Positions 51,044 to 64,000 of a stretch of DNA of 64,000 nt are shown piece by piece. The notes under the pieces are model-generated. The model was not told where the DNA came from. It was given only the letters and a program-made list of their open reading frames with translations, and did no database searches. Position 1 is the stretch's first letter. Every line of letters starts with the position of its first letter. This stretch comes from Desulfurellaceae bacterium bin18 (GTDB lineage: Bacteria > Desulfobacterota > Binatia > Bin18): NCBI GenBank assembly GCA_002238415.1, contig MPMI01000025.1, positions 1-64,000 of the forward strand. Reading direction: 5' to 3'. The position numbers were made by a program, and so were the translations under genes.

Positions 51044-51604
51044 TTAGATCATGTCCTCTGCCACCGGCCGAAACCCTTCCAACTCGGTCAGGCGGCCCTG
51101 TCGCAAGACCTGCACCACCCACTGATGCCCCTCCTGTGCCTCTCTGTGTTCCCGCCATTGCAGCCCGTATACGGCCTGGGCTTCCTCGGCCACTTCCTGG
51201 TCCGCTGCGTGTACGGCATACACGGCGGTTCCAAACTGCATGCCGCCCTGCTTCTTTGCCTGGCGAACGAGATAGGGTGGGTAGCGCTGCGTTGACACCA
51301 CATAATGATGATCGTCGTGGGTGACCTGCTCTTCCCATCCAGCCGGCCGCCACAGGGGACTAAAACCGTAATACCAGCCTAACAGGCCGCTGACGAACAG
51401 AAGCACGAGGCTGCCGAGAACCATGACGGCCCCAAACGGAGAATCATACAGCCAGGCGAGGCCACCGAAAAATAAGCCGGCGAGTCCGGTGACCACACCG
51501 GTATGAGCAAGAATAGTAATGAGTCGCACTCGGAATGTCCTTTCCCCACGGGAAGCAGGTATCTGCGAGGTTCGGGTGTAGCGTGTTTTTTTGTTCCCGG
51601 CCAC
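51044..51604 (-). CDS. Two-helix membrane protein of unknown function
   Basis: The 186-residue protein (GTG start at 51604) has a basic N-terminus, two hydrophobic helices (HTGVVTGLAGLFFGGLAWLY and GAVMVLGSLVLLFVSGLLGW) and a soluble C-terminal domain of about 90 residues. I recognise no family. It is convergent with the D-aminoacylase gene. Confidence 0.65.
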   Translation of the reverse strand: MAGNKKTRYTRTSQIPASRGERTFRVRLITILAHTGVVTGLAGLFFGGLAWLYDSPFGAVMVLGSLVLLFVSGLLGWYYGFSPLWRPAGWEEQVTHDDHHYVVSTQRYPPYLVRQAKKQGGMQFGTAVYAVHAADQEVAEEAQAVYGLQWREHREAQEGHQWVVQVLRQGRLTELEGFRPVAEDMI

Positions 51605-52559: not shown

Positions 52560-53177
52560 TTGCGCGTGTTGGGGATAGACCCCGGCACCCTGCGGACCGG
52601 ATGGGGTGTCATTGAGAAGACGCGCCGGACGTTGACCTTTTGTGCCGGCGATGTCGTCTCTGTCAAAGGCTTCCGCTCCCTGCCCGAACGCCTGCGTCTC
52701 ATCTATGAAGAGCTTGTGACGGTGATTGACCGCTGGACTCCCCACGTCTTGAGTCTTGAAAAAGCCTTTGTGGCACATAACGTCCAGAGCGCTCTGCGCC
52801 TCGGCGAGGCGCGGGGCGTGGTGCTCCTGACTGCGGCCCAGGCCGGTCTGCGGATTGCCGAGTATAATCCCACGGAAATCAAGACGGCGGTGGCCGGTTA
52901 TGGCCGGGCCGGAAAAATGCAGGTCCAAAAAGCGGTTTTTTCCCAACTGCGCCATCCAGACGGAGAAGCGGGGGTCTTTCCGTCAAGCCAGGATGCAACG
53001 GATGCGCTCGCGGCGGCCATTTGTTACTGTAGCGCTGCCCGCATGCCCGATATGCTCCGCCAGGCTGGTGCGCAGCCACGGCGGTCTGGGGGCAGGAAGG
53101 CCCGCTCTTTGCGCGACGTCTTTACTGAACAGACGGTCGCTCAGATGCTCGCTGCAGACCCGAAAAAGCAGCGGTAA
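52560..53177 (+). CDS. ruvC: Holliday junction endonuclease RuvC
   Basis: RuvC cuts four-way DNA junctions. The 205-residue protein starts at TTG 52560 to give the family opening xRVLGIDPGTLRTGWGVIEK with the first catalytic Asp. The catalytic Glu lies in SLEKAFVAHN, and the final Asp pair lies in SSQDATDALAAAICY. The C-terminal tail of about 30 residues is basic and Arg/Ser-rich. No strong ribosome-binding site precedes the TTG, so the start could lie some codons away. It is followed by ruvA after 21 bases. Confidence 0.95.
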   Translation: MRVLGIDPGTLRTGWGVIEKTRRTLTFCAGDVVSVKGFRSLPERLRLIYEELVTVIDRWTPHVLSLEKAFVAHNVQSALRLGEARGVVLLTAAQAGLRIAEYNPTEIKTAVAGYGRAGKMQVQKAVFSQLRHPDGEAGVFPSSQDATDALAAAICYCSAARMPDMLRQAGAQPRRSGGRKARSLRDVFTEQTVAQMLAADPKKQR

Positions 53178-53198
53178 CAGCTCGCACGGCAACAGATT

Positions 53199-53786
53199 AT
53201 GATTGCGCGCCTCCACGGAGTGCTCCACGAAAAGACCCCTGAGCAGCTCATTGTCGACGTTGGCGGAGTCGGCTATCAGGTGTTGGTGTCGTTACAAACC
53301 TTCTACCATCTGCCGGGAGTAGGGGAACGGGTCAGTTTGCTCATCCATACACATGCGCGAGAAGATGCTCTCCAGTTGTTCGGCTTTCTGGAAGAAAAGG
53401 AAAAGTCCTATTTCCTGCTGCTGCGCGGCGTGAGTGGTATCGGCCCCCGCCTAGCCCTCAATATCCTGTCGGGCATTCCGGTGAATGAGCTTGAGAGCGC
53501 GCTTCATACGCGCGACGTGACTCGCCTGGTTGCGACTCCGGGCGTTGGAAAAAAGACGGCTGAACGTCTGGTTGTGGAACTCCAGGAGAAAGTCGGTGCG
53601 AGTGAACAGGAGAATGGGATGCCAGCGGCAATGCCCAGCCCACTCTCGACTGAAGCGACCTCTGCTTTGGTGAATCTGGGCTATCGCCAGGCGCAAGCCG
53701 AGAAGACCGTGCGCGCGGTTGTCCGGGATGGGCACACGGCTATTGCCGACGTGATCCGAGAATCGTTACGGAGGCTCAGCACATGA
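53199..53786 (+). CDS. ruvA: Holliday junction branch-migration protein RuvA
   Basis: RuvA tetramers hold the junction for RuvB. The 195-residue protein has the N-terminal OB-fold ([20 protein letters not shown]), two helix-hairpin-helix motifs ([16 protein letters not shown] and [19 protein letters not shown]) and the C-terminal RuvB-binding domain ([20 protein letters not shown]). Its stop overlaps the ruvB start as ATGA. Confidence 0.96.
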
Positions 53787-54895
53787 GCCGCGCCGCGAAA
53801 GACGTACCAAAAGAGACGCACGACGACCCGGATAGTCCGGGGCGCGATTTGCTGAATCCCCAAGTGTCACCGGTGGACGCTCTGTCGGATGGTGACACTG
53901 CCTGGCATGACGAGCCACGTGTCGAGGGTTCGCTCCGACCGCGCAGCCTTGAAGAATACATCGGACAGGAAGGGACAAAACAGAATCTGGCGATCGCGAT
54001 TGAAGCCGCCAAACAGCGGGATGATGTTCTGGACCACCTGCTCTTCTGTGGGCCGCCCGGATTGGGAAAAACATCCCTGGCGCATATTATTGCGCGGGAA
54101 ATGGATGGAACGATTCGGGCCACCACCGGCCCGGTGATTGAACGGCCCGGTGACTTGGCTGCTATTCTGACCAACCTGGAAGAGGGGGATGTTCTCTTTA
54201 TCGACGAGATCCATCGACTCAATCATGTGGTTGAGGAATTTCTGTATCCGGCAATGGAGGACTTTGAACTTGACCTCGTCGTCGGTCAGGGCCCTTCAGC
54301 GCGAACGGTCAAGTTGCCACTCAAGCACTTCACTTTAGTCGGTGCTACTACCCGCGCCGGGCTGTTAACCTCACCGCTGCGCGATCGTTTTGGGGCAACG
54401 TTTCGACTGGATTTTTACCAGGTGTCCGAGTTGGAACAGATCATTCGTCGGTCGGCCTCAATTCTGGAGGTTGAGACCGATGCGGGCGGAACCGCGGAAA
54501 TCGCGCGTCGCTCACGGGGAACACCGCGGATTGCCAATCGTCTGCTCCGACGGGTACGGGACTATGCCCAAGTGAAGAAGGAGCCCGTGGTGACGCAAGA
54601 AGTGGCTCATGTCGCCCTGACGCTGGTTGAAGTGGATGAGGCCGGATTTGATAAAATGGACCTGGCGATTCTGCGGACGATTATCGAGAAATTCAACGGT
54701 GGACCGGTCGGCGTCGAGACCATAGCGGCAGCCATTGGCGAAGAGAAGAACACCATTGAAGACGTATACGAGCCGTATCTCTTGCAGGAGGGGTTTTTGC
54801 AGCGCACGCCGCGGGGACGGGTGGCCACCCTCAAGGCGTACCAGCATTTGCAGATTGACCAGCCTCGAAAAAAAGAGCAGGGCGATTTGTTCTGA
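53783..54895 (+). CDS. ruvB: Holliday junction branch-migration ATPase RuvB
   Basis: RuvB is the AAA+ motor of branch migration. The 370-residue protein has a 50-residue N-terminal extension, then [18 protein letters not shown], Walker A in [14 protein letters not shown], Walker B in LFIDEIHRL, sensor 1 in [11 protein letters not shown] and the arginine finger region [10 protein letters not shown]. The C-terminal winged helix ends in [15 protein letters not shown]. It is translationally coupled to ruvA. Confidence 0.97.
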
Positions 54896-54986: not shown

Positions 54987-57266
54987 ATGGAAGCCTCGGT
55001 CCACGAAAATCGCTCGGAGGAGCACAAACGCCGTCAGTTCTGGGAGGGTTTGGTCATCCTCGCTGCAGGGCTGGGTGTCTTTTTATTCGCCTTTCTCCAG
55101 AGCCGTTCTCCACAACTCAGCGACAGCGAAAGTCTCATCGGCAACCTTATTTTTATCCTCCTGATCAATCTCAATATCATCCTGCTTGTTTTGCTCGTTT
55201 TCCTGGTTGGGCGGAACCTGCTGAAGCTGTTTTACGATCGCCGTCGAAAGCTGCCTGGCGCACACCTGCGCTCTCGACTCGTCCTCGCTTTTTTGGGTAT
55301 TTCCCTTTTCCCGGCAGTACTCCTGTTCTTTATCGGGATCGGCTTTATGACGAAGTCGATCGAGAATTGGTTCGCCTTACGTGTTGAGCGCTCGTTAAGC
55401 AGCTCGCTCGAGGTCGTTGATGGGGTCTATGCCCGTCTTACGGATGAGACCCTCACTCACGCGCGGGCGATCGCCCGGACGATTATCTCCCAGGAACTCC
55501 TTGAGCCGACGCATTACGAGAGCTTGCAAGCCCGCATGAACAGCGAGCAGCACGAACGTGGTCTGACCCAGCTCGTCGTGTACTCCGCTGCGCTCACCCT
55601 TGTGGCCAATGCGCCGGAGACGAGCGGAGTGTTGACGGCCCCCCAACTCAGCGAGGACCTCCTGGAACGGGTCCGGTCTGAGATCGAGGAGGTCCAGCAA
55701 ATCGTGACACTAGAGCAGGCCGAGTTGGTGTACGGAGGTGTTCCCGTCATCATGGGAGAACACCTTGCTGGTGTTGTTGTGGCCGGCACTCAGGTTCCTG
55801 TGGATGTCGTCAGACAAGGATTGCAGGTGGTCGAGGCGTTGGGTGAATATCGCCAACTCAGAATCTTGAAGCAGCCAATCAAAAACAATTATGTGATTAC
55901 GATGTTCCTGGTCACCCTCGTCGTCATCTTCTCGGCGATCTGGGTCGGTGTCTATCTGGCGAAAAAAATTACGGTTCCCCTCCAACAATTATCGGCCGCG
56001 ACACGGGAGGTCGCTCAGGGCCACTGGGCGCACCGGATTGAGGGAGAAGGGGAGGATGAGATCGGCACGCTCGTTTCCGCCTTCAATCGGATGACCGTTG
56101 ACCTCCAGCAGAGCCACCAGGAACTTGAGACCCGGCGTCGCTATATGGAGATCCTGCTCGGGAATATCAACGCTGGCGTCGTCTCGTTTAATCGGGATGG
56201 TCGGCTCTCCACCCTGAACCGGGCGGCAGAGCAGTTGCTGCGTCTGCGCGCCGAGAGCGTCGTTGGGCAGGACTATCGTGATGTTTTCTCTGCAAGCGAA
56301 TTCCAAGCAGTGCAGCGCATCGTTCATGAGCTCCTTCTGGTGCAACACGACAACGGCAACGTCGCCAGTCAGGAACAGCGGGGCCAGCTCCGTTTGGATC
56401 GTGATGGGCACGTCCACTCCCTCCTGATAACCGGCACCTCTCTGCCTGACGACCGCGATCATGCCCTCGGGGTGTTATGCTTTTTTGAGGACGTGACGCA
56501 GATCGTCCAAGTCGAACGGATGGAAGCCTGGCGTGAGGTCGCCCGTCGGATTGCGCATGAAATCAAAAATCCGCTGACACCGATTCAGCTTGCGGCCCAG
56601 CGCCTTCAGCGCCGGTTTGGTCCCCAGATTACGGACGGGAGCGAAGTGTTTGACGAGTGTGTGCAGAGCATCGCGCATGAAGTCGACGCGATTAAAAAAC
56701 TCGTCAACGAATTCTCCACGTTTGCTCGTCTGCCGGCAGGAAAACATAATCTGCATGACCTGAATGCGTTGGCACAAGAGACAATTGTCCTGATCGCCGA
56801 AGCCTACCGCGATCTGGATATTGCCTTCGTGCCGGATCGCTCACTGCCGTTGTTCGAGTTGGATCGCGAGGGGATGCGCCGTGTTCTGCGCAATCTGTTA
56901 GACAATGCCGTTGTCGCCTGTCGAGAAGGAACGGATGGGACTCAGGGACGGATCGAAGTCACGACCCGATATCTGCGCTCGCTTAGTATTGCCTGCATCG
57001 AAGTCGCCGATAATGGCTGCGGGATTCCGCCTGACATCAAGGAACGCTTGTTCGAGCCGTATTTTTCAACCAAAAAGGACGGGACCGGACTCGGGCTGGC
57101 CATTGTTGCCACCGTGGTGGCTGATCATCAGGCATTTATCCGCGTACGGGACAATACGCCACGGGGCAGCCGGTTTATTATTGAGATGCCTGTGCGTGGA
57201 GGCGCGCGTCAGACAGATATGCGACGTGAGAAGCCCTCGTCAGCGTCAATTGAAAACGCAGCCTGA
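54987..57266 (+). CDS. NtrY-like sensor histidine kinase
   Basis: The 759-residue membrane kinase resembles NtrY. It has two to three N-terminal helices, an extracytoplasmic sensor of about 200 residues, another helix, and HAMP (AKKITVPLQQLSAATREVAQ). A PAS domain (LLGNINAGVVSFNRDGRLST) and the HisKA box with phosphorylated His524 in RRIAHEIKNPLTPIQL follow. The HATPase has N-box LLDNAVVACREG and G-boxes VADNGCGIPP and TGLGLAIVATVV. Its partner gene starts 18 bases downstream. In place of an NtrX activator, that gene encodes a receiver-LpxC fusion, so the kinase probably phosphorylates it. Confidence 0.93.
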   Translation: MEASVHENRSEEHKRRQFWEGLVILAAGLGVFLFAFLQSRSPQLSDSESLIGNLIFILLINLNIILLVLLVFLVGRNLLKLFYDRRRKLPGAHLRSRLVLAFLGISLFPAVLLFFIGIGFMTKSIENWFALRVERSLSSSLEVVDGVYARLTDETLTHARAIARTIISQELLEPTHYESLQARMNSEQHERGLTQLVVYSAALTLVANAPETSGVLTAPQLSEDLLERVRSEIEEVQQIVTLEQAELVYGGVPVIMGEHLAGVVVAGTQVPVDVVRQGLQVVEALGEYRQLRILKQPIKNNYVITMFLVTLVVIFSAIWVGVYLAKKITVPLQQLSAATREVAQGHWAHRIEGEGEDEIGTLVSAFNRMTVDLQQSHQELETRRRYMEILLGNINAGVVSFNRDGRLSTLNRAAEQLLRLRAESVVGQDYRDVFSASEFQAVQRIVHELLLVQHDNGNVASQEQRGQLRLDRDGHVHSLLITGTSLPDDRDHALGVLCFFEDVTQIVQVERMEAWREVARRIAHEIKNPLTPIQLAAQRLQRRFGPQITDGSEVFDECVQSIAHEVDAIKKLVNEFSTFARLPAGKHNLHDLNALAQETIVLIAEAYRDLDIAFVPDRSLPLFELDREGMRRVLRNLLDNAVVACREGTDGTQGRIEVTTRYLRSLSIACIEVADNGCGIPPDIKERLFEPYFSTKKDGTGLGLAIVATVVADHQAFIRVRDNTPRGSRFIIEMPVRGGARQTDMRREKPSSASIENAA

Positions 57267-57284
57267 GGTAGGGGAGGGACGTCA

Positions 57285-58592
57285 ATGGAAGAGCCCATCT
57301 TAATCGTGGACGATGAAGAAAAAATCCGGACGATGTTACGCGGAGTTTTGCAAGATGAAGGATTCCGTACACTTGAGGCGGACTCGGGTGAAGAGGTTCT
57401 CGACTTAGTCGCCGAGTGGCATCCGCGCCTGGTACTCCTCGACATCTGGATGCCACATGTGGACGGGATTGCTCTCCTCGAACAGCTTCAGTCCCGGGAC
57501 CCCGAATTGCCGGTTATTGTGATTTCCGGTCATGGAACGATCGAAACGGCCGTTCGTGCTACAAAACTCGGCGCGGCGGATTTCCTCGAAAAGCCCTTCT
57601 CGCTAGACACCTTACTCCGTTCGGTCCAGCGTGCCCTGGGAAAAGAGCCACGCCACGCCACTGCCGCCCAGACCGCCGCCGCGGCTGACGCGGATATCCC
57701 CGCCGGGCACGCGACGCGAAAAATCCCGGCTCGGACCATTCGTCAGAGCGTTGTCGTGCATGGCCGAGGGCTCCACTCGGGGGTGCGTACCGGGATTATT
57801 TTACATCCCTTATCGCCGGGGAGCGGTATTGTGTTCGGTCCCTTGTCCTCGGACATGATGATTCCGGCAACCGTCGAGTATGTCCAATCGACCGGCTACG
57901 CAACCAGCCTGTATCGGGAGGGAGCGGGGGTGAAAACGGTTGAACATCTGCTCTCGGCCCTGCACGGCTATGGCATCACCAATCTGCTCATTAAAATGCA
58001 GGGTGAGGTTCCTATTCTCGACGGGTCGGCGCTGGAATTCTGTCAATTGCTCGACAGTGCCGGCATTGTTGAACAAGACGAAGATGTAGAGGCCTTGAGC
58101 GTAGACCGGACCTATCAGGTCGGTGACCACAGCGCGGGGAAATTCCTCCGCATTGAGCCCTCGGAGCAGCTTGAGATCGACTACTGTCTGGAATACCCAG
58201 AGCCAGTCGGGAGACAGGAGTTCCACTACGTCCAGCGCGATGCTGACAGTTATCGTGAGACTATTGCGCCAGCGCGGACCTTCGGCTTTCTCAAGGAGAT
58301 TGAGGCACTTGAAGAGATGGGTCTTGCCAATGGTGGCCGGCTGAATAATTGCCTCGTGATTGGTGAGCAAGGGATCATCAATCCGCCCCTCCGCTTTGAG
58401 GATGAGCTTGTCCGCCACAAGGTTCTTGATCTGCTCGGCGACCTCTACCTGTTAGGCCAACCCATCCGAGGCAAGGTGACTGCCTACCGGACGGGACATG
58501 GCGACAATATCGCGCTGCTGCGGGCAATCCGCGAAGAGCAGGCTCCACGCGTGCCGGAGCCTGCGCCGAAAACAACTGCGGCTCCCCAGTAA
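57285..58592 (+). CDS. lpxC: Fusion of response-regulator receiver domain and LpxC deacetylase
   Basis: Residues 1-120 form a complete CheY-like receiver: acidic pair D9-D10 in ILIVDDEEKIR, phosphoacceptor D53 in LLDIWMPHVDG, Ser81 in VISGHG and Lys103 in EKPF. After a 30-residue Ala-rich linker, residues 150-435 are a full LpxC (UDP-3-O-acyl-GlcNAc deacetylase, committed step of lipid A). Zinc ligands are H221 (TVEHLLSALHGYG), H378 and D382 (RHKVLDLLGDLY), and catalytic H405 lies in YRTGHGDN. The AAA+ and DNA-binding domains of NtrX are missing. The frame is clean, with GAGG before ATG 57285. Phosphorylation would be expected to alter deacetylase activity or stability; this is inference. Confidence 0.95.
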   Translation: MEEPILIVDDEEKIRTMLRGVLQDEGFRTLEADSGEEVLDLVAEWHPRLVLLDIWMPHVDGIALLEQLQSRDPELPVIVISGHGTIETAVRATKLGAADFLEKPFSLDTLLRSVQRALGKEPRHATAAQTAAAADADIPAGHATRKIPARTIRQSVVVHGRGLHSGVRTGIILHPLSPGSGIVFGPLSSDMMIPATVEYVQSTGYATSLYREGAGVKTVEHLLSALHGYGITNLLIKMQGEVPILDGSALEFCQLLDSAGIVEQDEDVEALSVDRTYQVGDHSAGKFLRIEPSEQLEIDYCLEYPEPVGRQEFHYVQRDADSYRETIAPARTFGFLKEIEALEEMGLANGGRLNNCLVIGEQGIINPPLRFEDELVRHKVLDLLGDLYLLGQPIRGKVTAYRTGHGDNIALLRAIREEQAPRVPEPAPKTTAAPQ

Positions 58593-60002: not shown

Positions 60003-60599
60003 CTATTGTTCTGGCTGAGGATGTCTCTGACTTGGGAGGAATTCTTGCACTAGGGAGGATAATGATTGGGGCGGCTTCTGAGCCACTGGCGACGATTTTG
60101 TCGTTGGTGACATGACGCGGTGAAAGAGGCTGGACTCGCGCTGAAAGAATCCCTCGGTATGGTAGGATTCCCGGAAGCGGAAGTAAGTATAGTCTAAATG
60201 ATGACAGACCTCATGTAACAGGGTCCTGAGAAAGGTTCGGAACGCAACGGTTTGTTTGCGTTTTGCCGTCCGCATCCAGACTTGGATCGAATCATTTTTA
60301 CTGCCCCCGCCATATTGCGTATAGAGCCCGTGAAGTTCTCCCTGTTGGTTCGACGGACGAGTGCCGTGTACACGGACCTGGACCGTACGAACCCTGAGTT
60401 GCCAGCAGATGTGATTGACAATGGTCTGGGAGAGCGCTGCGACACGGGCTTGCTCTTCTGCCACGAGCGCGGCGGGCAGGGCTTTGACCGCCGCTCGAAG
60501 TTGTGGGCTTGAGTCAAGTCTAATCGTTGTGACCGCAGTGCTCCGGTCAAAGATTCGCTGCTGAAAAGGAGTCAATTTTGCACGCCAGTGTCGCCGCAT
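60003..60599 (-). CDS. HExxH putative metallopeptidase of unknown family
   Basis: The 198-residue protein carries a zinc-binding HEVCH at residues 129-133 in [15 protein letters not shown], with a conserved downstream [19 protein letters not shown] where His147 or Glu149 could be the third ligand. AGGAGG precedes ATG 60599. No signal peptide is seen, so it is probably cytoplasmic. The pattern recalls SprT-like and other small zincins without matching any one clearly. It is divergent from an exported-protein gene. Confidence 0.75.
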
Positions 60600-60740
60600 T
60601 GCAGCCTCCTGCACACCCTCACTTATTGTGGCCTGAAAGGAGCGGGACGGCAAGGGAGCGGCAAGGGCAGCAATCCTTTTCTTTTGCCGTGTAATGGCAT
60701 AGATTGCGAGCGCTCAGCGTTTGATCAAAAGGAGAAGACG

Positions 60741-61271
60741 ATGCGGGGCGGTTGGGCGGCGACGCTCTGGCTCCACCTCCTGACGGGCATTGCGTTCCTC
60801 TCGCTCGGTACGGAGGTCCGGGCGAATGGTTTTGTTCGCTTTTTCGCAAACCAGAAAATCGGACAGGAGATCATCGTGACCGGTGGCTTCCGACGTTTCC
60901 CCGATCGAGACAAACGACGCTATTTTGTACGAGATAGGCAGACGGGTGAGGTTGAGTACGTGGAATACTATGGGATGACGATGCTGCCGACCTTGGTTGT
61001 CGGCAACGGTACCGTTTCTATGAAGGCGAGTATCATGACCCGGATGCTCCTATTCTATTCGGACCGGGCTTTGGTGAAAGATATCCCTCTCAAGGGCGAG
61101 TCGTACTGGTTTACCGGGACGTTGATCGGCTATCAGTACGGGACGATGGGCATTACGCGGGGAATGGGCGTTGGTGGCGATCCGTATATTTTGCTCAGGA
61201 GCGTCTCAGCCAACCCCCCGGATACGCTCCCTCTGCCACCCCAAAAGAAAGAGAAAGAAGACGCCGACTAA
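60741..61271 (+). CDS. Hypothetical exported protein
   Basis: ATG 60741 follows AAAGGAGAAG and opens a 176-residue protein with a signal peptide ending near TEVRANG. The mature part (KIGQEIIVTGGFRRFPDRDK, YVEYYGMTMLPTLVVGNGTV) is strand-rich with no domain I recognise and ends in a Lys/Glu-rich tail. It stands alone before a 457-base gap. Confidence 0.72.
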   Translation: MRGGWAATLWLHLLTGIAFLSLGTEVRANGFVRFFANQKIGQEIIVTGGFRRFPDRDKRRYFVRDRQTGEVEYVEYYGMTMLPTLVVGNGTVSMKASIMTRMLLFYSDRALVKDIPLKGESYWFTGTLIGYQYGTMGITRGMGVGGDPYILLRSVSANPPDTLPLPPQKKEKEDAD

Positions 61272-61728: not shown

Positions 61729-62817
61729 GTGGACGAACACAACACCCCTGACATCCACACTCGTATCACTGAGCGTCTCAGGCAGATTCAATATCCAGGC
61801 TCACAGCGAGATATTGTGACCCTAGGACTTGTTGGCAAGGTCCAGGTCCAGACAGACAGTGCGGTGGTGCAGATCCGGGCAAGCAGTATCAAAGAAGATG
61901 TCCTCCGCCACTTGCGCGGACGCATCACGCAAGAATTGACGACCTTACCCGAGATCGTGCACGTCCATATCCACGCGTTTGCCGCTCAAGCTGGGGAACC
62001 GCACCAAGGGGGCCAAGCGGGGAATCAAGCTGTGCGAGAGCGCGCGGATATTCCTGGGGTTCGGCGTATTCTGGCGGTGGCCAGCGGGAAAGGCGGGGTC
62101 GGGAAATCTACGGTTGCGGTCAACCTCACCCTGGCTCTAGGGTCGTTGGGACATAAGGTTGGGCTGCTTGATGCCGACATTTATGGACCCAGCGTACCGC
62201 TGATGATGGGGACCGAGGCCACGCCACGGGCGGGGCAGGACAAAAAGATCTACCCGGTTGAAAAGTATGGGGTGAGTCTCATCTCGATGGGTTTTTTTCT
62301 GGATGACCAGTCTCCGGTGATCTGGCGAGGCCCCATTGTGATGAGCATTGTCCGCCAGTTCCTGCGTGACGTGATCTGGAGTGAGTTGGATTACTTGGTT
62401 GTGGACCTACCGCCCGGTACCGGAGATATTGCCCTCACCCTGGCTCAGGAAGTTCCCCTGCACGGGGGTGTTATCGTGACGACGCCGCAAGATGTGGCCC
62501 TGCTTGACGTCCAGCGCGGGATCAGCATGTTCAAACAGGTCAATGTCCCGCTGCTTGGGGTGATCGAGAATATGAGTTTTTACGAGTGCCCGGTCTGCCA
62601 CGAAAAAGAAGAAATCTTTGGCCATGGCGGCGCCCAGAAAACGGGACTGAAGGTGCTGGGTCAGGTGCCCCTGGTTGAAGAGGTGCGAGTTGGTGCCGAC
62701 GCGGGTAAGCCGGTGGTGGTCTCGGCTCCTGACCATCCGGTTGCCCAAGAGTTTTTTGGGATTGCCCGGCAGGTCGTCGCGGCAGAGGAAATGCAGTTGC
62801 CCCAGTCGGTCCACTAG
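61729..62817 (+). CDS. mrp: Mrp/NBP35-family iron-sulfur carrier ATPase, first copy
   Basis: ApbC/Mrp proteins carry iron-sulfur clusters to target enzymes using ATP. The 362-residue protein starts at GTG 61729 after GAGGAGAGG. It has an N-terminal MIP18/DUF59-like region, the deviant Walker A SGKGGVGKST at 119-128, Walker A' LLDADIYGPSVP, VVDLPPGTGDIALTL, and the C-terminal CPVC pair that binds the shared cluster. The N-terminal domain lacks the usual first strand detail but is full length. It is followed by a DUF971 gene and a second Mrp copy. Confidence 0.93.
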   Translation: MDEHNTPDIHTRITERLRQIQYPGSQRDIVTLGLVGKVQVQTDSAVVQIRASSIKEDVLRHLRGRITQELTTLPEIVHVHIHAFAAQAGEPHQGGQAGNQAVRERADIPGVRRILAVASGKGGVGKSTVAVNLTLALGSLGHKVGLLDADIYGPSVPLMMGTEATPRAGQDKKIYPVEKYGVSLISMGFFLDDQSPVIWRGPIVMSIVRQFLRDVIWSELDYLVVDLPPGTGDIALTLAQEVPLHGGVIVTTPQDVALLDVQRGISMFKQVNVPLLGVIENMSFYECPVCHEKEEIFGHGGAQKTGLKVLGQVPLVEEVRVGADAGKPVVVSAPDHPVAQEFFGIARQVVAAEEMQLPQSVH

Positions 62818-62837: not shown

Positions 62838-63164
62838 ATGCCGACTCCCCTTCTCCTCACGCCCATTCCTGAAGACCAGCTCCTGCGTGTGCTGTGGGAT
62901 GACGATACCCTGAACGACTACCCCTTCGCCTATCTGCGGGGCTGGTGTCCGTGTGCGGTCTGCCAGGGGCATGGTGGCGAACGCCACTTTATTGAGGTGG
63001 AAAATCCTCAGCTTGTGAGTATCGATATGGTCGGTAATTATGCTGTGAATCCGACCTGGGATGACGGCCACGAAACGGGCATTTACACTTATGTCTACCT
63101 GCGGAGTTTAGGCGAGAGCCAAGATAGTCAGCATAGCCAGGATGATCCCGAAGGGACACATTAA
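62838..63164 (+). CDS. DUF971 domain protein
   Basis: The 108-residue protein has the DUF971 signature: LRVLWDDDTLNDYPFAYLRG, WCPCAVCQGH with a CxxC, and the C-terminal NYAVNPTWDDGHETGIYTYV block. These domains occur next to or fused with Mrp ATPases and are thought to help iron-sulfur delivery. It sits between two Mrp genes with 20 and 10 bases of spacing, so all three are likely co-transcribed. Confidence 0.92.
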   Translation: MPTPLLLTPIPEDQLLRVLWDDDTLNDYPFAYLRGWCPCAVCQGHGGERHFIEVENPQLVSIDMVGNYAVNPTWDDGHETGIYTYVYLRSLGESQDSQHSQDDPEGTH

Positions 63165-63174
63165 AGGCGCATCT

Positions 63175-64000
63175 ATGTCAACACCACCAACACCCCAGGA
63201 ATTATTAGAAGCCCTCAAACAGGTCAAATATCCCGGCTTTAACCGAGATATTGTCGCCTTCGGCGTGGTCAAGGATATTGCGGTCGGCGGTGCGGCGGTG
63301 ACGGTAGAGCTCGCCCCTTCAACCGGCAATGCGGAGGTCATCGCAGACATTCGACAGCGCGTGATTGAAACGCTCAGCCCGCTCGTCCACCTGCCTGTAG
63401 AGATTTCCATCCAGCAGCCGGACGCCCCAAAACCTACGCCTCAGTCCAAGCCCCAGATTCCAGGGGTGCGGCATGTGGTCGCGGTGGCCAGTGGCAAGGG
63501 TGGGGTTGGAAAATCAACGGTTTCGGTGAACCTGGCAACGGCGCTGGCTCGAACGGGCCAGCGGGTTGGGGTGATGGATGCCGATGTCTATGGACCGAGT
63601 ATCCCCCTCATGTTGGGTATTAACGAGAAGCCCAAGAGCACGGAAGATAAACGCTTGATCCCGGTTACCAAATACGACATGCGGATCATGTCCATGGGCT
63701 TTCTGATTCCAGACAGCCACGCCGTCATTTGGCGCGGGCCGATGATCGATAAGCTGCTGACCGAGTTTATTACCAAGGTCGAGTGGGGAGAACTGGATGT
63801 GCTCGTCGTGGACCTGCCGCCTGGCACCGGCGACGCGCAGCTGACCATGGTGCAAAAGGTTCCGCTCTCCGGCGGGGTCATTGTGACGACGCCCCAGGAT
63901 GTGGCGCTGCTTGATGCGCGTCGGGGCATCAAGATGTTTGAGGAAGTCGACGTTCCAATCTTGGGTGTTATCGAAAATATGAGTTACCTGATCTGTCGTT
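63175..64000 (+). CDS. mrp: Mrp/NBP35-family iron-sulfur carrier ATPase, second copy, 3'-truncated by window edge
   Basis: The 275 visible residues include an N-terminal MIP18-like domain (ELLEALKQVKYPGFNRDIVA), Walker A SGKGGVGKST near residue 106, MDADVYGPSIP, WRGPMIDKLLTEF and VVDLPPGTGDAQLTM. It parallels the first copy closely but differs in many residues, so they are true paralogues rather than a fresh duplication. The frame is open to the window end, just before the expected CxxC. Confidence 0.93.
   Translation, partial: MSTPPTPQELLEALKQVKYPGFNRDIVAFGVVKDIAVGGAAVTVELAPSTGNAEVIADIRQRVIETLSPLVHLPVEISIQQPDAPKPTPQSKPQIPGVRHVVAVASGKGGVGKSTVSVNLATALARTGQRVGVMDADVYGPSIPLMLGINEKPKSTEDKRLIPVTKYDMRIMSMGFLIPDSHAVIWRGPMIDKLLTEFITKVEWGELDVLVVDLPPGTGDAQLTMVQKVPLSGGVIVTTPQDVALLDARRGIKMFEEVDVPILGVIENMSYLICR

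Follow-up and report, generated by a model that had tools for sequence, protein, structure and literature searches.

Can lipid A synthesis be governed by a phosphorelay acting on an enzyme of the pathway itself, i.e. with LpxC as the output domain of a response regulator? This question is raised by a single gene in the window, the 64,000-nucleotide stretch of contig MPMI01000025.1 analysed here. Antibiotics are directed at LpxC, and lipid A synthesis is controlled mainly at this enzyme. To our knowledge, the LpxC proteins known so far are either free or fused to FabZ (PRK13188), and the control described for them acts by proteolysis, protein partners or transcription, never through an attached receiver.

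A receiver and an LpxC enzyme in one frame

The gene and its upstream neighbours comprise the following features:

52560–54895, + strand: ruvC-ruvA-ruvB, conserved upstream neighbours, in an order kept across Binatia loci
54987–57266, + strand: NtrY-type sensor histidine kinase, 759 aa (HAMP, PAS, HisKA and HATPase_c; Pfam)
57273–57277, + strand: Shine-Dalgarno-like GGAGG, 7 nt 5' of the fusion ATG
57285–58592, + strand: receiver–LpxC fusion gene, 435 aa, single intact frame (Pfam and NCBIfam)
57297–57626, + strand: receiver domain, residues 5–114 (Pfam Response_reg, E=4e-32)
57636–57731, + strand: linker, residues 118–149 (32 residues), Ala/Pro-rich, no in-frame start codon
57732–58529, + strand: LpxC deacetylase domain, residues 150–415 (Pfam LpxC, E=5e-87)

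The fusion gene starts with an ATG and is a 435-codon frame; the one intact frame of receiver and LpxC described by the sequence-only reading is thereby confirmed, both by the frame itself and by the Pfam and NCBIfam matches. The LpxC domain scored 292 bits with PF03331 (cut-off 27), and the NCBIfam lpxC model TIGR00325 scored 268.7 bits (cut-off 187.25). The receiver carries the phosphosite D53 together with D9, D10, S81 and K103, so that the set of phosphorylation residues is as complete as had been stated, and the LpxC half contains the zinc ligands H221, H378 and D382 as well as H405, again as read before, with E220, K379 and D386 in addition. Among response-regulator models, the best for the receiver was that of NtrX (NF051870, residues 5–121), while the whole protein reached only 133.6 bits with this model, against at least 600 for membership. 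Neither the AAA+ sigma-54 activator domain nor the Fis-type HTH was found by Pfam or NCBIfam, in agreement with the earlier view that the NtrX-type AAA+ and DNA-binding parts are missing. Judged by these scores, the protein is derived from NtrX but is not a member of the NtrX family.

In the predicted structure (mean pLDDT 87, pTM 0.85) both domains are well formed, and residues 123–143 of the linker are poorly predicted (pLDDT <50); the pTM suggests that the two domains may pack in a defined way. The modelled LpxC domain matched Aquifex LpxC with 39% identity, a Z-score of 39.1 and an rmsd of 1.4; the fusion therefore shares with known LpxC (PF03331, TIGR00325) the full domain, the zinc and catalytic residues and the fold (Z about 39). 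The modelled receiver matched solved receivers, including that of Brucella NtrX, with Z of ~22, and is 50% identical to the latter (4d6x). A genome search identified the fusion as the sole LpxC of the 5.24-Mb assembly, in which LpxB is also present. The LpxC domain is thus predicted to act as the deacetylase on UDP-3-O-acyl-GlcNAc, being the only LpxC of an LpxB-bearing genome.

Distribution of the fusion

The closest named relatives are Binatia/Binatota MAGs (88–95% protein identity), 'Binatia bacterium' being placed by NCBI in Candidatus Binatota. Within a class sample of 58 genomes, i.e. the window genome and 57 others of the same class, the fusion was present in 53, with 52 near full-length matches and one ending at residue 228 in a fragmented assembly. 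LpxC was absent altogether from the remaining five. True loss was rejected for the two most complete of them (G041 and G045), whose contigs end inside ntrY, before the expected gene; the other three are 80–84% complete. The fusion also lies on two independent single-contig chromosomes (L032, OX638322.1, and L037, OY282457.1). Since the same architecture occurs in dozens of independent assemblies, chance is excluded, and so is an assembly error confined to this contig, which had been named as an outcome that would overturn the finding.

We further sampled 395 genomes of the GTDB phylum, which also includes the Desulfovibrionales. An LpxC match at E<=1e-40 was obtained in 344 of these, and 91 of the 344 carried a fused LpxC, as called by match strength and open-frame length. 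Class and phylum samples combined, fusions span roughly 30 families. While 71 distinct fused genes were read individually, the remaining fusion counts rest on the search table. All 71 have invariant D9, D10, D53 and K103, with Ser or Thr at position 81 apart from one Cys, and invariant E220, H221, H378, K379, D382, D386 and H405 in LpxC, and the invariance of the phosphosite holds over deep divergence, down to 37% identity. The comparison across genomes proposed with the first description bore out a widespread fusion with the receiver before LpxC but not a conserved linker, which varies from 26 to 68 residues; any coupling between receiver and LpxC must therefore tolerate such variation. The receiver–LpxC fusion is real, old and widespread, and the evidence that selection has acted on each half is strong.

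Considering that the phosphosite never varies, readings in which phosphorylation of the receiver has no regulatory effect on LpxC lose ground. This applies to a passive fusion without regulatory consequences, in which either the receiver is a mere remnant or LpxC is set free, by cleavage or by translation from a start within the gene. An in-frame start in the linker, preceded by a Shine-Dalgarno-like motif, does exist in 10 of 54 fusions; however, the linker of the window gene has none and no such start is conserved among the others, and a relic receiver should have lost its phosphosite in the way the AAA+ and HTH parts lost theirs. We regard this as the least probable of the explanations considered.

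Outside the phylum, no fusion was found among 144 genomes from the phylum of L101 (Bdellovibrionales), with a threshold of E<=1e-60, or among 398 from that of L065 ('Proteobacteria'), with E<=1e-62, few candidates per genome being scored in both cases; viral contigs yielded none. LpxC ORFs of 449–482 aa in other phyla (G441–G444) are probably the known LpxC–FabZ enzyme. Apparent kinase–receiver–LpxC hybrids, i.e. ORFs of 600–1400 aa, were rejected, because their extra N-terminus is an out-of-frame, Arg/Pro-rich read-through of GC-rich DNA, covering the overlapping ntrY frame or other DNA.

Descent from NtrX

The receiver–linker–LpxC architecture is that of 60 of the 71 fusions read. The other 11 (L134–L138, L142, L143, L145–L147 and L157) are long forms of about 700–745 aa, consisting of receiver, NtrX-type AAA+ domain, remnant HTH and LpxC. 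An NtrX origin of the fused receiver, which had been implied before, was upheld by the best-scoring model (NF051870), by receiver identity and by the long forms, i.e.: within the phylum, the receivers of three NtrX orthologs share 54–59% identity with that of the window gene, which matches their closeness to one another, and the NtrX-like part of the long form L134 scored 268–296 bits with the NtrX of L173 and L176, against 184 bits with the NtrC-type regulator L169. In L173 and L176, two unfused relatives, lpxC, ntrY and ntrX lie side by side.

The long forms have been conserved very unevenly. Among the 11, mean pairwise identity is 60% for the receiver and 62% for LpxC, compared with 30% for the AAA+ core and 27% for the HTH region, whereas the NtrX orthologs of the phylum are best conserved in their AAA+ core (68–71%, receiver 57–62%). 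According to the alignment, none of the 11 has kept GAFTGA, changes are seen in the Walker B region, and the HTH is decayed or missing. In the six long forms scanned with Pfam, Sigma54_activat dropped from the 242–251 bits seen in NtrX to 48–116 and HTH_8 was not detected, while both GAFTGA and HTH_8 are present in the NtrX of L173 and L176. For one long form, a fold was predicted with low confidence (pTM 0.41) and was left out of our conclusions. Since receiver and LpxC kept their identity while AAA+ and HTH decayed, constraint evidently stayed on the switch and the enzyme, a pattern to be expected if the output of the receiver moved from transcription to the enzyme.

In the LpxC tree, a single branch (support 100/99) parts the fused from the free LpxC domains, which fits one fusion event. 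Some families contain both fused and free LpxC, and transfer or replacement must therefore have occurred as well. The long form is probably older than the short one, because it holds the NtrX-derived AAA+ and HTH parts, which would then have been lost more than once; the LpxC tree on its own would allow other orders of fusion and loss. Several individual genomes and families are of interest here. Families f41, f62 and f97 contain fused and free LpxC, and the fusions of f41 and f97 form one long branch, suggesting horizontal transfer or replacement of lpxC. In family f47, G258 (L132 and L190) and G300 (L133) encode divergent receiver–LpxC proteins (38–39% identity); G258 has in addition a free LpxC adjoining ntrY and a separate NtrX ortholog, so that two LpxC enzymes may coexist. 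G103 combines a fused (L155) and a free LpxC (L179) in one assembly, the free one near ntrY, which could mean that the bin is mixed (5% contamination) or that the pair is genuine.

Clear NtrX orthologs (>500 bits) were found in four of 20 genomes, i.e. the two unfused relatives together with G258 and G331, both of which retain NtrX besides the fusion. A separate NtrX ortholog is absent from the other 16 of the 18 fusion-bearing genomes tested. This distribution bears on a reversed flow of information, in which substrate occupancy of LpxC would alter receiver phosphorylation and the fusion would draw phosphate from NtrY, as a sink that senses a metabolite. In principle, coupling within a fusion can run in either direction, the catalytic residues of LpxC are intact and some genomes do keep NtrX; yet with NtrX, the obvious other target of NtrY, missing in 16 of the 18, a sink would have no competitor. 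Together with the invariant phosphosite, this makes such a role quite improbable, if a little less so than a passive fusion.

NtrY and the proposed control of LpxC

The gene for the kinase ends 18 bp before the fusion starts. NtrY_N scored 21.8 bits on it, slightly below the cut-off of 23.2, and its H-box is intact, with the phospho-acceptor motif ARRIAHEIKNPLTP. NtrY is therefore the likely kinase of the fused receiver, and a membrane location is predicted for it. In Binatia loci with enough flank, as well as in L122, L134–L137 and L142, ntrY lies immediately 5' of the fusion. The ruvC-ruvA-ruvB order is the same in L032, L034, L036, L037, L161 and L164–L167, and ruvC/ruvB also adjoin the unfused lpxC-ntrY-ntrX of L176, upstream as in Binatia. 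Where ntrY is unlinked from the fusion, it was still found in 20 of the 22 genomes tested, G436 and G417 having no match at E<=1e-60; the flanks fetched around the unlinked ntrY mostly contain no neighbouring ntrX, with the exception of G331. In families without adjacency, NtrY would nevertheless be the presumed partner of the fusion. The ten neighbours seen at five loci lacking an adjacent ntrY had no envelope theme in common; one of them, next to the long form L143, resembles the gene for undecaprenyl diphosphate synthase.

Downstream of the window fusion lies a convergent gene for a class II tRNA synthetase. Further along, two Mrp/NUBPL-type iron-sulfur carrier ATPases, each with FeS_assembly_P, occur nearly in tandem (61729–62817 and 63142–63999), with a small GBBH-like_N protein between them (62838–63164). 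The ORFs at 51044–51604, 60003–60653 and 60588–61271 have no Pfam match; in that at 60003–60653, a zinc-protease-like HEVCHHLD motif was noticed by eye.

A receiver binds its kinase at the DHp domain. Considering also that NtrY is a predicted membrane kinase, the receiver might be a mere docking part, keeping LpxC at NtrY and thereby near the membrane-bound later steps, without any switch. However, docking has no need of D9, D10, D53 and K103, which are invariant in all 71 proteins, and we consider it unlikely to be the function of the receiver, albeit somewhat more plausible than a phosphate sink.

Regulation of LpxC by the fused receiver is thus likely, going by the conserved residues, and an effect of phosphorylation on LpxC activity, i.e. 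the direct phosphorelay control named in the sequence-only reading, is what the sequences best suggest. A former ntrX would have fused to lpxC and lost its AAA+ and DNA-binding parts, leaving LpxC as the output of the receiver. The membrane kinase NtrY, encoded just upstream, would sense an envelope-related signal and phosphorylate D53, upon which the receiver would change conformation, probably dimerizing via its alpha4-beta5-alpha5 face; this change would reach the sole LpxC through the linker and alter its activity. Lipid A output could in this way be adjusted at the committed step as fast as a phosphotransfer proceeds, without transcription. The fusion with its intact residues, its conservation and NtrX origin, the neighbouring kinase and the loss of NtrX are seen in the sequences; both the phosphotransfer from NtrY to D53 and its effect on LpxC activity, including the sign, are parts of the model that we infer. 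We give this explanation as a whole a probability of roughly 0.65. It also seems probable that throughout Binatia, and in further lineages of the phylum, the phosphorelay has LpxC as its direct output, with the long forms preserving the intermediates, i.e. fusion followed by decay of the ATPase and DNA-binding parts while the switch was kept.

A conserved phosphosite would also agree with a receiver that acts on protein stability, on location or on some other partner. The main rival is accordingly a receiver that sets the amount of LpxC, its phosphorylation exposing the protein to FtsH, Lon or ClpXP or hiding it from them, with catalysis unchanged, in place of the enterobacterial FtsH/LapB route. 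Proteolysis is the usual means of LpxC control (PMC13333357, PMC12444477), and the fusions mostly end 1–9 residues past the LpxC fold (15 in the window genus), which allows hardly any C-terminal tail. Moreover, the LapB zinc ribbon was not detected among the best 150 of up to 330 candidates in 16 genomes of the window family (G000–G015), which may be a real loss or a limit of the search. On the other hand, no degron was identified, and the ribbon was found in eight of the 12 other fusion-carrying Binatia genomes searched, i.e. in at least eight of 28 class genomes with the same selection of candidates. Control of the protein amount therefore appears rather unlikely, though less so than docking, a sink or a passive fusion.

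Evidence for a connection between NtrYX and lipid A comes from other bacteria. In Rhodobacter sphaeroides and Caulobacter, both the envelope and the expression of lpxC respond to NtrYX (PMC7240162, PMC12444477); loss of NtrYX in R. sphaeroides raised the lpxC transcript 8.8-fold and LPS about two-fold, and lpxC showed no NtrX site (PMC7240162). It is tempting to guess, on the weak ground of these precedents, in which NtrYX lowers lpxC expression, that signalling through the fusion restrains lipid A synthesis. With the NtrX/NtrYX systems of Alphaproteobacteria (NF051870), the fusion has in common the NtrX-type receiver and the NtrY-type kinase partner. In contrast to known NtrX, which binds DNA, the window fusion has no AAA+ or DNA-binding domain, and its output is LpxC. 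Within the same GTDB phylum, the response regulator DVU2934 of Desulfovibrio vulgaris has the lpxC gene as its only mapped target (PMC3333781), and is thus another case of two-component control of LpxC, but acts by DNA binding on transcription and, unlike the fusion, is separate from LpxC.

Among the inputs that reach LpxC through transcription in Alphaproteobacteria, a 2025 review lists NtrYX and ChvGI; the terms response regulator, fusion and fused do not appear in it (PMC12444477). A 2026 review on the control of E. coli LpxC mentions no receiver or two-component link and names allosteric control of LpxC as an open question (PMC13333357). The statement that no LpxC had been described as the output of a response regulator holds for the open-licence literature searched, in which we found no description of a receiver–LpxC protein; protein databases may already show the architecture uncommented.

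Response regulators with enzymatic outputs are well known, such as the CheB, GGDEF, EAL, HD-GYP and PP2C types. As in the fusion, an N-terminal receiver precedes a C-terminal enzyme; however, those proteins act in signalling or chemotaxis, while the output of the fusion is an essential biosynthetic enzyme. The fusion is therefore a response regulator with a new and essential enzyme output. On the best reading, NtrX fused to LpxC, shed its transcription parts and became an enzyme controlled by signalling, and the long and short fusions offer a concrete evolutionary series of a two-component system dropping transcription to act on metabolism. The fusion would also tie NtrYX, the envelope phenotypes of which are loosely explained, to lipid A at the protein level. 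If the explanation is true, a sole LpxC with its own phosphorylation switch would provide a direct, quantitative handle on LpxC allostery. For the soil-dwelling Candidatus Binatia host, our data suggest direct control of lipid A synthesis by a signalling kinase, in place of control via gene expression.
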